IMG/VR virus record: IMGVR_UViG_3300046006_000636
Coordinates: 1 to 36,681 of that record
Strand: one strand, 5' to 3'
DNA length: 36,681 nucleotides
From: a virus
The notes beneath the pieces are model-generated. The model was given only the letters and a program-made list of their open reading frames with translations. It had not been told where the DNA came from and made no database searches. Both the position numbers and the translations under genes were made by a program. Below, in pieces: positions 28,302-36,681 of the stretch; position 1 is the first letter of the stretch, and the number at the start of each line of letters is the position of its first letter.

Positions 28302-28766
28302 TTGAAAGCATTGGTCTTGGCTATAGCTATATCCGTATTTGCTTTTGTAACTCCAGCTAATGCTGGTGGGAGTTGCCCGCAATGGGAGACTTCTATACGA
28401 AAGGCTGGTCTTCCAGTCAAAGAGTTCAGTTACATCGCTCACAGAGAGTCCAGATGCCGTATCAAGGCAATCAACGCTCGCTATGACAAGAACGGAAAGG
28501 TCATTTGGACACTCAACAAGAACGGCTCAATTGACCGAGGATTGTTTCAGATAAATTCAGTCCATAAACAAACCGTCAGAACTATTTGTAAGAGTGATTT
28601 AGATGAGCTTTTAACTTTACCTTGTAATTTAAAAGTAGCTAAATATCTATATGACAGATATGGATTGGCTCCGTGGAAAGGGCATTCGGTTATTCCTCAA
28701 TCCCGTACCGACGCTCCTCCCACCCTTGGTGCTCGCGCTCTAGATAATCTTGCAAGAAATAAATAA
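28302..28766 (+). CDS. Secreted lytic transglycosylase (endolysin)
   Basis: A 154-aa protein. TTG start with AAAGGA 6 nt upstream. Signal peptide MKALVLAIAISVFAFVTPANA, cut after A21. The mature part has the SLT-type catalytic motif: E49 in AHRESRCR and SIDRGLFQINS. Four Cys (C25, C52 and two later) suggest disulfides outside the cytoplasm. It cleaves peptidoglycan glycan strands for lysis or entry. The 3' end overlaps the convergent gene by 77 nt. Confidence 0.85.
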   Translation: MKALVLAIAISVFAFVTPANAGGSCPQWETSIRKAGLPVKEFSYIAHRESRCRIKAINARYDKNGKVIWTLNKNGSIDRGLFQINSVHKQTVRTICKSDLDELLTLPCNLKVAKYLYDRYGLAPWKGHSVIPQSRTDAPPTLGARALDNLARNK

Positions 28767-29001
28767 AGTTTGCTAAAAAGTCTTCAATATAATCAAAAGA
28801 TTCAATAAAGTATTCGTCGGTATCTTCGCTTTGCGAGTTGTACCAATGCTCTACTAAATCCATGCATTGTTCGTTAGTTAAACCAATGTTGACTATAAAC
28901 CCATTCTCGTTGTCATGAATGATTCTGTCCGTCCTGTCGGCAAGGTCGTAAAGGTCTTCTTCGTTAAATAACCTTTTAGCCCAACTCCATGAATCAGTCA
29001 T
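28690..29001 (-). CDS. Acidic hypothetical protein
   Basis: A 103-aa acidic protein (SWAKRLFNEEDLYDLADRTDRII...EYFIESFDYIEDFL). No domain recognised. Start 29001 overlaps the sigma-like stop by 8 nt and is preferred; an in-frame start at 29025-29028 (MMGELV) is possible. Its 3' end lies antisense to the transglycosylase gene. It ends the left-going operon. Confidence 0.65.
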   Translation of the reverse strand: MTDSWSWAKRLFNEEDLYDLADRTDRIIHDNENGFIVNIGLTNEQCMDLVEHWYNSQSEDTDEYFIESFDYIEDFLANFIYFLQDYLEREHQGWEERRYGIEE

Positions 29002-29359
29002 ACCTGAGTATCTTACTAATTCGCCCATCAATCATTAGTACTTCTTCTAAATGGCTGTATGCAATCTGCTTTAGTCTCCATGCATGGGTGGCAGAAATGC
29101 CCATTCTTTTTCCCAACTCTTCATAAGTGATGCGCTCGTAGTTAATGGCGTGGATTACAAATCGGTCTTGTTCTAGTAATACCGCCAAACAGTCAAGAAC
29201 AATATCTTGAACATCATTAAATAAAGTTTTATGTTTACGAGGCTCTTCAAATGGAGCCGCTTCCATCAAGGCTTGGTATTCGTTTTCTGGTTCGTAATTA
29301 CTCAACAAGCTCATGAGGTCGTCAACATCAATAGGGATTTCCCTTTTGCTGTAACTCAT
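28994..29359 (-). CDS. Sigma-70 region-4-like protein
   Basis: A 121-aa protein. The C-terminal part, about 63-108 (LLEQDRFVIHAINYERITYEELGKRMG, then SATHAWRLKQIAYSHLEEVL), matches the helix-turn-helix of sigma region 4 that reads the -35 and contacts RNA polymerase. Region 2 is absent. Such phage proteins act as partial sigma factors or anti-sigma-like regulators. Start 29359 is preferred: it lies 4 nt after the stop of the 27-aa peptide gene. The frame extends to 29389 without support. It may direct polymerase to the TAATG-N-TATA motifs. Confidence 0.78.
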   Translation of the reverse strand: MSYSKREIPIDVDDLMSLLSNYEPENEYQALMEAAPFEEPRKHKTLFNDVQDIVLDCLAVLLEQDRFVIHAINYERITYEELGKRMGISATHAWRLKQIAYSHLEEVLMIDGRISKILRYD

Positions 29360-29363
29360 TGAG

Positions 29364-29447
29364 CTAGAAAATTTCCAAGACATGACCAATCACCAGAATA
29401 GCCAAGCAGATAACGGAGAACTGTAAAGCTCTGTATATGGAATTCAT
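29364..29447 (-). CDS. 27-aa membrane peptide upstream of sigma-like gene
   Basis: MNSIYRALQFSVICLAILVI then GHVLEIF: one hydrophobic helix spanning about residues 8-24. The minus strand has a perfect AAGGAGGT 3 nt before ATG, the strongest ribosome site in the region. Its stop lies 4 nt before the sigma-like ATG, so it may be a leader for translational coupling or a true single-span peptide. Confidence 0.65.
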   Translation of the reverse strand: MNSIYRALQFSVICLAILVIGHVLEIF

Positions 29448-29511: not shown

Positions 29512-29871
29512 CTATCGTTTAAATGCCTTCAGGTTTACAACTTGCTTGTCATCGTCGTATGCAACACCGTTTAATCCATCAAGCAGACTCTTCACATAGT
29601 TGTCAAGGTCTCCGCGAAGTTTTGATTCTTCCTTGACATTTATCAAAGTGACATTGATGTGCGTGGATTGGAATGTGCACGCCACCTGAATGCTTCCCTC
29701 AAGCTTTGGAAGACCAAGGTCAAGGTAAGTCTGACGGATTGCGTCCTCATATTCACGAGTTGCCTTGTCCGTGTACATGCCATGCTTGCCAGCACGAGGG
29801 CGACCCTTAGCCTTTGGTTTTAACGGGATATTGAATGTAATTACACGCTTACTGCGTGATTCTTCAGTCAT
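29512..29871 (-). CDS. rusA: RusA-type Holliday-junction resolvase
   Basis: A 119-aa protein. Start with the basic KAKGRPRAG loop; catalytic acidic residues in GDLDNYVKSLLDGL (D88, D90, K94) and YDDDKQV (D107/D108), in the same order as E. coli RusA. It cleaves four-way DNA junctions, resolving branched DNA before packaging. Start 29871 is preferred to 29904; it overlaps the end of the 54-aa membrane gene by 8 nt. It is the only clear DNA-processing enzyme besides HNH and terminase. Confidence 0.9.
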   Translation of the reverse strand: MTEESRSKRVITFNIPLKPKAKGRPRAGKHGMYTDKATREYEDAIRQTYLDLGLPKLEGSIQVACTFQSTHINVTLINVKEESKLRGDLDNYVKSLLDGLNGVAYDDDKQVVNLKAFKR

Positions 29872-30028
29872 TGGGTTCTTTGAACACAAGCCAGTAATGA
29901 GCAATCAATGCAAGAACTGTGGCTATGAGGGCAACCTTTTGTGTAAAACCAGAGAGAGTGAAATACATAACAACAGCACCCGACAAAGTAAAACCAAGCC
30001 CAAGTGTTGAGTCAAAGAACTTCTTCAT
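29864..30028 (-). CDS. Small two-TM protein
   Basis: A 54-aa protein. MKKFFDSTLGLGFTLSGAVV and VALIATVLALIAHYWLVF give two hydrophobic helices (about 8-27 and 31-49) with a Lys-rich start and Asp end. It overlaps the upstream gene by ATGA. It looks holin-like but sits in the left-going operon, far from the lysis genes, so function is uncertain. Confidence 0.68.
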   Translation of the reverse strand: MKKFFDSTLGLGFTLSGAVVMYFTLSGFTQKVALIATVLALIAHYWLVFKEPND

Positions 30029-30570
30029 CCGAATTTAAGCCCAATGTCCTGTGCGCTTACATCCTTTGGCGGCCAGAACGGAGTCTTGTTGCCATCGGCA
30101 CTAACAAAATGCGGACGACGATTCTCAGGAGTTGCACTATCACGGTTGTCAAACACCTTTTCTACGCCAGCTTTAGCGGCGGCGCGACCAAGCCATGCTG
30201 GAATCGGACCGTGGGTCTGACCAGCAATCTGCACATCCTTCATCTTCTTCACAGGTGTTGCTGATGCTTTCATACCTGCTGAAACCGCAGTACTTGAACG
30301 AGCATTATCTAGTTCGGATTTGATTTCATCTTGTGACTTACGGACAGGGATGTTGCGCCCGCCCACTGTAGGCGCATCATCCCACGGTGACCCTTCAGGC
30401 ACCGATTGTCCATAAAGTCTCCCAAGAACAACATCAAGGACACCAGAGAAAGCTTCTTCAAACCCCTTTAGTGCATCTTCAATTGTCTCAGGCTTAGTAA
30501 CAACTGTTAACTCAGAAGCAATCTTCGCGCATGCTTGGATTTCTATTGAGCGTGAAACTTCGTTAGCCAT
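30025..30570 (-). CDS. Hypothetical protein, possibly DNA-binding
   Basis: A 181-aa protein. An N-terminal helical part with KPETIEDALKGFEEAFSGVLD, a Ser/Asp linker and a C-terminal motif, IPAWLGRAAAKAGVEKVFDNRD...RPHFVSADGNKTPFWPPK. I have a recollection of a similar VxDNRD...FWPP pattern in phage proteins annotated near single-strand DNA-binding genes, but cannot confirm it. The stop overlaps the two-TM gene and the start overlaps the preceding stop, so it is coupled to both. Confidence 0.6.
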   Translation of the reverse strand: MANEVSRSIEIQACAKIASELTVVTKPETIEDALKGFEEAFSGVLDVVLGRLYGQSVPEGSPWDDAPTVGGRNIPVRKSQDEIKSELDNARSSTAVSAGMKASATPVKKMKDVQIAGQTHGPIPAWLGRAAAKAGVEKVFDNRDSATPENRRPHFVSADGNKTPFWPPKDVSAQDIGLKFG

Positions 30571-33875: not shown

Positions 33876-34222
33876 TGGCTTTCCCTCCATTTAGCAATGC
33901 GTATCTGTTGACATAGGCGACAACGGCGCGAAAGATTCCCTTGATTATCTACATACTCATACAAGTTGTCACCAGACAAAGGATGACCACGAAAACAATG
34001 AGAAGACAAAGGTCTACCTTTACGGTTTCCCTGCTTGTTCTTCACAGGTGCTTTATAACCCTCAGACAACGGATGAATACCCGTCAGAACCTTCTTAACC
34101 GTGCTCACAGAACAGTTAAAAACAAAGGCAACATCATGATGAGTCATCGGCGCAGAACAATCCAAGTAATACTCGTAACATTCAATCATCTCAACAATGT
34201 CAGCCTTAGACAACTTAGCCAT
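33872..34222 (-). CDS. HTH and zinc-knuckle DNA-binding protein
   Basis: A 116-aa protein. An HTH at about 27-48 (MTHHDVAFVFNCSVSTVKKVL), a basic linker (KNKQGNRKGRPLS) and C-terminal HCFRGHPLSGDN...RRCRLCQQ, a zinc-binding element common beside HNH folds. Probably a transcription regulator or homing-type DNA-binding protein. It could bind the paired sites at 665-691 and 34531-34560. Its stop overlaps the downstream ATG. Confidence 0.72.
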   Translation of the reverse strand: MAKLSKADIVEMIECYEYYLDCSAPMTHHDVAFVFNCSVSTVKKVLTGIHPLSEGYKAPVKNKQGNRKGRPLSSHCFRGHPLSGDNLYEYVDNQGNLSRRCRLCQQIRIAKWRESQ

Positions 34223-34260
34223 GAACTAATAGTAATGCATAAGCATCAAAACCAATGCAA

Positions 34261-34494
34261 CTAAAAGGGAAGCCTGTTATCCAACACAGGACTAATGCTC
34301 TTCAACAAATCCCACACCTTCTCAGCATGCACGCGCAAAGCATCCCTATGTTGCGCATTAAAAGAATCAACACCATCAAAGTGTGTGAAACCCTCAAGAC
34401 GCTTCAACTCTGCCTGCCATTGCTTATCAACGGCAACGAAGCCCTGTAGTTCAGCAGCAAGCGCGCCAATTAATCTGTTCTTATCTGTAGCCAT
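34261..34494 (-). CDS. Hypothetical helical protein
   Basis: A 77-aa protein (ATDKNRLIGALAAELQGFVAV...AELKRLEGFTHF...HAEKVWDLLKSI), wholly helical, no family recognised. GGGAG lies 7 nt before ATG 34494. An in-frame GTG start at 34554 would lie in the shared repeat; less likely. First gene of the left-going block after the noncoding region. Confidence 0.65.
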   Translation of the reverse strand: MATDKNRLIGALAAELQGFVAVDKQWQAELKRLEGFTHFDGVDSFNAQHRDALRVHAEKVWDLLKSISPVLDNRLPF

Positions 34495-34542
34495 GTCGTA
34501 CTCCCATGTGTCGTGTTGTACACAGAGTATACACCAAAAACA

Positions 34543-34560
34543 ATCTGCTAGCACACACCA
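34543..34560. repeat. Control repeat, right copy
   Basis: Matches 665-682 at 17 of 18 positions (ATCTGCTAGC then T/C, then ACACACCA-type end). Another ACACCA lies at 34531-34536, and a minus-strand TATACT lies just beyond. Like the left copy it precedes a left-going gene, so it is probably a shared operator or promoter element. Confidence 0.6.
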
Positions 34561-34663
34561 CGAAAGATATGTAGAAAATGTGGGACTACAACCAATGTGT
34601 ACACTAGCGTACGCACCGACTAGAAAGTCTCAAGTTGGCTACAAGGAACAGAAGAACACTAAA

Positions 34664-34704
34664 AACGCTAACAAAAGTATGCAAAACGCTTGCAAAAGTT
34701 AGCA
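34664..34704. repeat. Iteron-like direct repeats
   Basis: Two 20-nt copies, AACGCTAACAAAAGTATGCA and AACGCTTGCAAAAGTTAGCA, 21 nt apart, identical at 16 of 20 positions. The outer GCTAAC and GTTAGC also form an inverted repeat. About two helical turns apart, they could bind a replication or regulatory protein. Confidence 0.5.
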
Positions 34705-34852
34705 GGCTAGAAATACTGAAGAAGAAAGAGGAATGATAAGGGCATAACTACTAGCCGTAATTGACCGCTCAGTTAATTAATTGCTGTCGTATTTGCTGTG
34801 TTTGTGCAGCCATTGTGTGCTTGTTGGTGTGTAATAGCCAGTTATCAACCTA

Positions 34853-34890
34853 CGGGTAAACTATCAAGTTAGGTATGACTTGTTTACCCG
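34853..34890. other. Perfect 9-bp inverted repeat
   Basis: CGGGTAAAC and GTTTACCCG flank a 20-nt spacer which can pair again (AAGT/ACTT). There is no T-run on either side, so it is more likely an operator or origin stem-loop than a terminator. Confidence 0.6.
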
Positions 34891-35085
34891 ACTGTTCGGT
34901 GCACGACTACCTGGGACTGCTGGCTACTACACATGTATAGGTTATCAGACATTGATGCTGTAATCAATTAATACAGCCGTTGATGTAGTGATGTATACAC
35001 ATTCGTTGTTGTATGTGACCACATAGGCATATACACATGGATAGTCATATAGTCAGTCAGTACCTGTACACACATACCCTAGGCA

Positions 35086-35108
35086 CCCCCATACCCACCC
35101 CCCCACCC
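35086..35108 (-). other. G-quadruplex-type tract
   Basis: The minus strand reads four G-runs of 3, 7, 3 and 5 separated by 1-3 nt, fitting the G-quadruplex pattern; 12 bases later comes TATATATATAAA. It could pause polymerase or help strand opening. Confidence 0.5.
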
Positions 35109-35170
35109 ACCGTCAATTTGTATATATATAAAGGGTAGGGAGCCGTGGTTACTTCTAAATACTTCTTATG

Positions 35171-35317
35171 TTACGAGTTGTCGTTTTCTGTGATTCGGTC
35201 TTCTGGTGGTGTGTAGAAGGATGCTTCGTATTGTTCAAATTCTGTTTGTTCGTCGTATTCGTCTAGTAGGTATGCTTCGTCGCCGTTGATTACTACTATT
35301 TGTCGTGGATTGTTCAT
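35171..35317 (-). CDS. Small acidic protein
   Basis: A 48-aa very acidic protein (NNPRQIVVINGDEAYLLDEY, then DEQTEFEQYEASFYTPPEDR). TATAGT lies 6 nt before ATG with no ribosome site, fitting leaderless translation. Its composition resembles small phage inhibitors or DNA-mimic proteins, but that is only a guess. Codon use and a clean start support it as a gene. Confidence 0.6.
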   Translation of the reverse strand: MNNPRQIVVINGDEAYLLDEYDEQTEFEQYEASFYTPPEDRITENDNS

Positions 35318-35922
35318 GTGTTTACTATACCCCGTACGGTTGTTTTGTTAAGTACTGTTGTGAATTTTTATTTTGTGTTGCCTGTAATTTGTTGTATGCT
35401 AACAGTTTGTTGTCAACTTTGGGTATCTGTGAATGGTTGCGCCTCATGAGCGGCGCGCTCTCTAGTGCCTTTGCTTCGCTGTCGCTCGCACGGCACGACC
35501 TTTTTGTTGTGTTTGTTATCCGCCCTAAGAAAGAACAAAGAACGGCAAGAAAAAGAAAGAATGCACCCGTTGTGTGACTAGGCGCAGTTCCACACCCCCA
35601 GCAGCGTTTATAACTTTTGTTATAGGGGCAGGGCTTCACTTTCCTGACCAGATTGGGTACTGGATTTATTTCTTTCTTCTAAAATAAAAGCGGAACGCAA
35701 AACCCGCGCCCTCTAACGGCATCCACGGTAGGCTCATTTAAGTGCTTGGCGGGAAATTAATCAACCACCTCTACTCGTGTACCTTCGCGGCATGGGTGTG
35801 TCCTAACCACACCAATAATCCACCTATCAGGGTGGAGCTGAAACTCTCTCTATTGATTAGAAAGAGTCATTACCTTCTTGACCTTTTTAGTCAGGTTTAA
35901 TTCCCGACCTGTTTGGTCAGGA
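35318..35922. other. Structured noncoding region
   Basis: About 605 nt. ORFs on both strands here (35305-35577 plus; 35325-35639 minus) lack ribosome sites and plausible composition. It holds hairpins: TATAAC/GTTATA near 35610, GGTGTG/CACACC near 35797, CCACC/GGTGG near 35822, ACTCTCTCTA/TTAGAAAGAGT near 35842-35866, and CCTGACC/GGTCGGG on the minus strand near 35905-35925. The last may terminate the Lys-rich gene. No tRNA was seen. Confidence 0.5.
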
Positions 35923-36492
35923 TTACCTAGAATCGTGTTTGCCTTCCCATGGCAGAAGCTTCTTCTTTGCAAGCGCCTGTTCGGCTGCTGCTTCTTGCTC
36001 TGCTTTGCGGGCTAACCACTCAGGGTTTGGAGTTCTAGTTGCTTTGAACTCTGTTTCAGCCTTGTGATGTGGCTGCTTTTCAACCTTTTTATTAAATTTT
36101 TTTTCTGGCGCAACATTAGAGACGATTAATGGTTGCTTCTCTGCAGGCTTTGGCTTGAGTGCTTTTTGGCGTTGCTTGTATTCTTCAAGGGCTTTTTCGC
36201 GGTCTTTGACTGCGTACTCTCTGGCAAGTTGTTGTTCAATGGCTATTTGCGCAGGGGTCTTTGTAGTGACGGTGCGTTTGCCTTTGCGTTTGCGCTTCTT
36301 TTTAATCTTGTTCACCTTGTTGATTTCGTCATAACCTAAAGGCTTTTCTACTACCTTTGTGCCGTCAGCTTTAATCACGGTCACTGGTGAGTTCAGTTCT
36401 GGCTTATAAGCCTTACCTGTAGTCCAGCGTGGATTAATCGTGTGGTTGGCAATGTACCGATTGGTACTGCGTCTGTAATTCATTCCTGCCAT
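35923..36492 (-). CDS. Lys-rich hypothetical protein
   Basis: A 189-aa basic, probably mostly disordered protein. KIKKKRKRKGKRTVTTK (about 63-79) is a nuclear-localisation-like basic patch, followed by a charged helix (AIEQQLAREYAVKDREKALEEYKQRQKALK) and Lys/Pro/Glu-rich C-terminus (LARKAEQEAAAEQALAKKKLLPW). AAGGAG lies 6 nt before the ATG. No family recognised; nucleic-acid binding is likely from composition. It has its own promoter motif upstream. Confidence 0.7.
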   Translation of the reverse strand: MAGMNYRRSTNRYIANHTINPRWTTGKAYKPELNSPVTVIKADGTKVVEKPLGYDEINKVNKIKKKRKRKGKRTVTTKTPAQIAIEQQLAREYAVKDREKALEEYKQRQKALKPKPAEKQPLIVSNVAPEKKFNKKVEKQPHHKAETEFKATRTPNPEWLARKAEQEAAAEQALAKKKLLPWEGKHDSR

Positions 36493-36555: not shown

Positions 36556-36681
36556 CTTGTGATATATCACCACTCAACTTCGCACTAAATTTCGTACTAA
36601 ATTTTGCGCTGATTCTTACGCTTTTGGTAAGCCTTTTGGTTGTTCTCACGGATTTTTTCTTTAGACAAATTTTGCTTGTAA
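36556..36681. repeat. Terminal direct repeat, right copy
   Basis: Exact copy of 4-129. It contains the palindrome GTGATATATCAC and the tail of the HNH gene, cut off at the window end. Confidence 0.9.
36597..36681 (-). CDS. HNH endonuclease, partial duplicate from terminal repeat
   Basis: The last ~27 codons of the HNH gene, including the stop, identical to 45-129. Not a second gene; it follows from circular assembly or a terminal repeat. On a circle the HNH gene would be followed, leftward, by the promoter motif and Lys-rich gene at 36492. Confidence 0.8.
   Translation of the reverse strand, partial: YKQNLSKEKIRENNQKAYQKRKNQRKI

Follow-up and report, generated by a model that had tools for sequence, protein, structure and literature searches.

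Tandem copies of a probable actinobacterial operator and a structured element, probably RNA, in a conserved noncoding region of a phage genome

We analysed a viral contig 36,681 bases long (the window) and found that a 676-nt noncoding region carries two tandem copies of the 16-bp dyad GCTTGC-AAWA-GTTAGC, a sequence that overlaps promoters in actinobacterial chromosomes, together with a three-way junction whose pairing is kept by compensatory changes. Our preferred reading, with a probability of about 0.58, is a conserved phage control region that combines an operator pair for an Rv0474-like host regulator with a structured element, probably an RNA. The initial annotation had read the region as a candidate origin that would recruit the host replisome in a phage with no visible replisome genes. 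A conserved, non-random control region in such a phage is what we also observe; its proposed function as an origin is not established, for the reasons set out below.

The window has a 126-nt terminal direct repeat (positions 4-129 and 36556-36681, with GGG ahead of the start copy), which makes a complete circular assembly of ~36.55 kb probable. The structural arm, on the plus strand, encodes a terminase, an SU10/P22-type portal and a major head protein, and the small-gene arm lies mostly on the minus strand. When the plausible genes were scanned against Pfam and PHROGs, there was no match to a DNA polymerase, helicase or primase, in agreement with the initial annotation, which had missed RusA. 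Besides HNH-type proteins, the DNA- or transcription-related products detected by these scans are mainly RusA and a sigma-region-4-like protein (Table 1). The ORF of the latter is read straight through in the window and other relatives; its homologues in L170, L171, L173, L174 and L150 are split by an apparently identical +1 frameshift right before a GVSTPHAWRL motif, possibly a programmed frameshift. The 30025-30570 product gave a poor structure model (pLDDT 43) and ends in a C-terminal motif, VFDNRDSATPENRRPHFVSADGNKTPFWPPK, that resembles the tails of phage ssDNA-binding or annealing proteins; its C-terminal half is missing in the relatives L170, L174 and L101. Structure comparison of the 28690 product yielded no significant PDB match, and neither of these two products thus gave a replication fold. 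WhiB genes (PF02467) are present in the relative L172 (16934-17320) and in the dyad carrier L264 (1006-1266), indicating actinobacterial hosts for these phages.

Table 1 Features of the noncoding region and related genes, in window coordinates
Feature	Position	Strand	Remarks
Sigma-70 region-4-like HTH protein	28994-29389	-	E 5e-5, just under the cut-off; conserved across the phage group
RusA Holliday-junction resolvase	29512-29904	-	PF05866, E 5e-18; phrog_140, E 6e-25
Noncoding control region, 676 nt	34495-35170		Between a 77-aa ORF (34261-34494, minus strand) and the 48-aa ORF
Lone near-DnaA box TTGTACACA	34516-34524	+	One mismatch; not above chance
Operator-like dyad copy 1, GCTAAC-AAAA-GTATGC	34667-34682		Kept in L002 and L184, with slight variation in L082/L083
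Operator-like dyad copy 2, GCTTGC-AAAA-GTTAGC	34688-34703		Spaced 21 bp from copy 1; same dyad as that preceding Rv0474-like HTH genes
Three-way junction, probably RNA of a leftward transcript	34828-34933	-	z -4.2 on the minus strand, -2.8 on the plus strand; compensatory pairs
9-bp inverted repeat, distal helix of the junction	34853-34890 (arms 34853-34861, 34882-34890)	-	Both-sided changes in two of its pairs; one U-A replaced by U.G
G-rich tract, G4-type on the minus strand	35077-35108	-	Position kept in L002, L187, L172 and L165
Conserved block CCACGGCTCCCTACCCTTTATATATATACAAATTGACG	35113-35150	-	Most widely kept part (L002, L184, L187, L165, L172, L011); once in the genome
48-aa ORF	35171-35317	-	Upstream of the region in the putative leftward transcript; similar small ORF in L002, L184 and L187
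Promoter-like TTAACA-16-TATAGT	35324-35351	-	Position suits a leaderless start of the 48-aa ORF; 10/12 match; weak, as shuffles also yield such sites

The noncoding stretch has exactly the extent first assigned to it, with ORF boundaries at 34494 and 35171. Positions 34575-35179 are 80% identical to the copy in L002, a relative whose terminase is 96% identical to that of the window, and this identity is distributed blockwise, diverged spacers alternating with long stretches free of change. L184 and L187 fall into one clade with the window and L002; L172 and L165 have only the end blocks and the dyads in common with the region. Two smaller features of the initial annotation were found again, the C/G tract, which is the sole G4-type run in the genome, and TATATATATA, present in a single copy at 35121. 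No tRNA was found in the region. A small plus-strand peptide over the repeats (in a frame ending ...NANKSMQNACKS) was considered and rejected, its core of ~50 nt being invariant even at synonymous positions and its start unconserved. A second noncoding stretch of ~600 nt (35318-35922) adjoins the region and contains the majority of the terminator-like hairpins identified in a scan of 34200-36000 (9, compared with 1.8 expected).

The repeats first reported as iteron-like (34664-34704) are genuine tandem repeats, located at 34662-34682 and 34683-34703, with 17 of 21 positions identical and a period of 21; none of 300 first-order shuffles of the region reached this identity at any period from 15 to 30. 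Their identification as iterons did not hold, as they match an actinobacterial host operator and not the iteron of a Rep protein. The repeats are two copies of the dyad, copy 2 exact in the core and copy 1 less perfect. L172 carries two identical copies, likewise 21 bp apart, and the close relative L187 a single degenerate one (score 16.4). Within 2.16 Mb of compared loci, strict forms of the dyad are confined to the gap of the window group, with isolated looser matches in L125 and L176.

A scan with the extended dyad, GTGCTTGCAAWWGTTAGCAC, returned at least 120 matching stretches; site counts given here refer to the 120 matches listed, nearly all of which come from actinobacteria by title, where titles are given. 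Using the strict pattern, a conserved HTH gene (signature QREAAQVSVRQLAEKAGVSNPYLSQIERG) was present within 1.1 kb downstream of the dyad in 84 of the 120 matches listed, and many of the remainder listed precede HbhA-like or other small genes. An HbhA-like gene often follows the HTH gene, giving an order (dyad, HTH, HbhA-like) that we take to be that of Rv0474-hbhA. The dyad is present once in seven of eight host genomes and twice in the eighth, with zero matches for a reversed-motif control. In a draw across the phylum it was found in 19 of 296 genomes, mostly upstream of the HTH gene, and in the large-genome loci L442-L449 it lies upstream of an orthologous MASLNVGNLGEYLREQRR gene. It precedes other small genes in Acidimicrobiia-like genomes, and only 2 of the 32 small actinobacterial genomes examined encode the regulator, with this operator not nearby. 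The chromosomal form, GCTTGC-AAWW-GTTAGC, is the same 16-bp dyad as that of the window and is probably the autoregulatory operator of an Rv0474-like XRE regulator (Mycobacterium Rv0474 / MSMEG_0918), a protein assigned to it by position alone. Rv0474 reportedly acts as a repressor of its own expression (PMC10884836). A literature search for this operator found no dyad motif or binding data.

Host and phage sites differ in their arrangement. The host operator is usually present once, is in many cases (63 of the 120 matches listed) preceded at 10 bp by a third half-site, and overlaps a promoter -35 element: a TANNNT -10 lies 16-18 nt from the TTGCAA of the dyad in 113 of the 120 matches listed. 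In contrast, the phage has two whole dyads at 21 bp with no promoter at the right distance, and a -10 at that spacing was found at 0 of 20 phage or plasmid dyads, which thus lack the -35 placement seen in hosts. The repeats thus resemble a host operator that has been separated from its promoter. Searches by tblastn among the compared stretches identified no phage-encoded copy of the regulator.

The dyad extends beyond the relatives of the window. A single-dyad scan of viral contigs gave 81 stretches, many of them probably chance matches. A second copy at exactly 21 bp occurs in viral loci that encode no homologue of the window's proteins, and a degenerate tandem-pair pattern matched 12 viral stretches. 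The tandem pair is not a general bacterial feature, with 0 matches in 84,980 bacterial genomes. Further carriers among annotated records were three phages of Gordonia, the Rhodococcus phage Weasels2, two podovirus-type Manatee Spring records and the Mycobacterium adipatum plasmid pMYC1. The dyads of these carriers lie mostly in gaps without annotated genes, and some copies are not 21 bp apart, or just one is good; one copy in MW202803 falls within a short annotated hypothetical ORF, and those of pMYC1 occupy a gap of 970 nt that precedes an ORF and dnaB. The window group, the L263/L280/L308 group, the Gordonia phages, Weasels2 and pMYC1 are mutually unrelated. Carriers of the dyad thus comprise three or more unrelated groups of phages together with one plasmid; the sites lie in long noncoding gaps, in many cases as a 21-bp tandem pair, a spacing that is the same in L172 and the L263 group. 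In the gaps of L263, L264, L277 and L280, several LexA-box-like sites (CGAACACTTGTTCG, CGAACACACGTTCG) are found beside the dyad pair.

We propose that the tandem repeats are paired sites for a conserved, Rv0474-like actinobacterial regulator of the XRE-type HTH family. In host chromosomes this regulator appears to have one site, over the promoter of its own or an HbhA-like gene. The phage operator would be a doubled version at 21 bp, corresponding to two helical turns, and devoid of a promoter, a layout which suggests that phage DNA most likely attracts the host protein. Once recruited, the protein would set the transcription or the architecture of the phage control region and, as phage copies build up, would be pulled off the host promoter. 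LexA-box and other host-regulator sites occur on phage DNA; the window resembles these in bearing the operator of a host regulator, but differs in the regulator concerned and in the tandem, promoterless layout. A broader scenario, which we put forward tentatively, is that unrelated actinobacterial phages and at least one plasmid independently took up the doubled promoterless host operator to recruit or sequester the regulator at a control or origin region, coupled in this clade to an undescribed three-way-junction RNA.

The 9-bp inverted repeat of the initial annotation is present and forms the distal helix of the junction (Table 1). Chance predicts 0.25 occurrences of a perfect 9-bp inverted repeat within 60 nt, which makes such a repeat weak evidence alone; this one sits inside a larger stem (34828-34841 with 34920-34933) that shows compensatory changes. 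When the window type is compared with the L002/L187/L184 type, four pairs are double-compensatory (8 cells), one U-A is replaced by U.G and one terminal pair is lost, with 98.3% of cells paired across the junction and no double changes in slid-partner controls. This covariation reflects few independent events, because the element is restricted to the closest relatives and effectively to two sequence types; a covariance model matched close relatives of the window's own clade, with nothing convincing in the distant L172 and L165. Folds of the whole 677-nt sequence barely surpass those of shuffles (z -1.5 and -1.1), and we therefore claim structure for the 126-nt core only. No Rfam family reached a gathering-level score in the region, GOLLD and ROOL remaining unmatched even at E 10. 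The window resembles these two large structured phage RNAs in having a structured element in a noncoding phage gap, but structure is shown for only ~106 nt of it. A leftward transcript would start leaderless at the 48-aa ORF, from the promoter-like sequence at 35351-35324, and run through the junction; the element at 34828-34933 is most likely an RNA within this predicted transcript.

The stem could instead act at the DNA level, as a cruciform or folded single strand that serves, for example, as a RusA substrate or a single-strand priming site. Covariation by itself cannot tell DNA from RNA, RusA acts on junctions and the plus strand folds too, and yet we do not favour this reading: the wobbles read as G.U when taken from the minus strand, matching the direction of the neighbouring genes, and the minus-strand fold exceeds its shuffles by more than the plus-strand fold (z -4.2 versus -2.8), observations that involve small counts and some circularity, since it was the minus-strand fold that was tested. 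That the region as a whole is a product of chance, or functionless, decayed intergenic sequence, is very improbable. Long gaps do occur in phages and single features such as the 9-bp repeat are near chance level, but the blockwise conservation in L002 contradicts this explanation, and the compensatory changes and the near confinement of the dyads to this gap among the compared loci also speak against it. It is unlikely that the promoterless pair is purely a sponge, titrating the host regulator and derepressing its single operon (regulator and HbhA-like gene). A chromosomal operator that is usually single per genome compared with two per phage genome, the absence of promoters at phage operators and their presence in unrelated phages would suit a sponge; two sites per genome, however, would titrate little early in infection, and the sites are confined to control gaps rather than being found anywhere, which suggests a local role.

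A replication origin used through the host replisome, either DnaA- or recombination-dependent, with the dyads as accessory sites and the structured element for priming or unwinding, is possible though not favoured. The missing replisome genes, the long conserved noncoding gap and the encoded RusA are consistent with it, as is the location of the pMYC1 dyads. Two related phages have DnaA boxes near dyads, as in DnaA-dependent origins: in the relative G016 (L172), TTATCCACA and TTTTCCACA lie ~60-70 nt from the repeats and form the best DnaA-box cluster in its scanned stretches (L065, L172), and MW202803, which encodes DnaB-like and primase-like proteins, has five near-DnaA boxes (0.49 expected) in a 1-kb stretch that also holds the dyads. 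In contrast, the region in the window has no DnaA-box excess (1 near-match versus 0.58 expected), with no cluster anywhere in the genome, and the dyad gaps of the other carriers Gmala1, Weasels2, L263 and L308 contain no DnaA boxes. Nor does the region hold an AT-rich unwinding element, its minimum being 33% GC per 60 nt versus 22% elsewhere and its sole TA tract 12 nt long. The GC-skew analysis suggested in the initial annotation places the cumulative minimum at 35111 and the maximum at 28682, extremes that track gene orientation and not replichores, so it is uninformative on the origin. Iteron-type theta origins (e.g. RSF1010, P1, pSC101) have short tandem repeats at about two-turn spacing, with G/C-rich and A/T-rich tracts nearby. 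The window is similar in these respects, its tandem direct repeats having a helical-turn period of 21, but there are just two of them, they match a host operator, and the Pfam and PHROGs scans contain no Rep family that could supply a cognate initiator. These confidences are not mutually exclusive, because an origin is compatible with the operator reading.

If the preferred reading of an operator pair and structured element is correct, Rv0474, known mainly from Mycobacterium tuberculosis, where it lies beside HbhA, would be a common contact point of actinobacteria and mobile elements, and its operator could be used to locate the control regions of phages with otherwise no genes in common. The structured element would add one more candidate structured RNA, and the replication of a small phage without visible replication genes would become testable.
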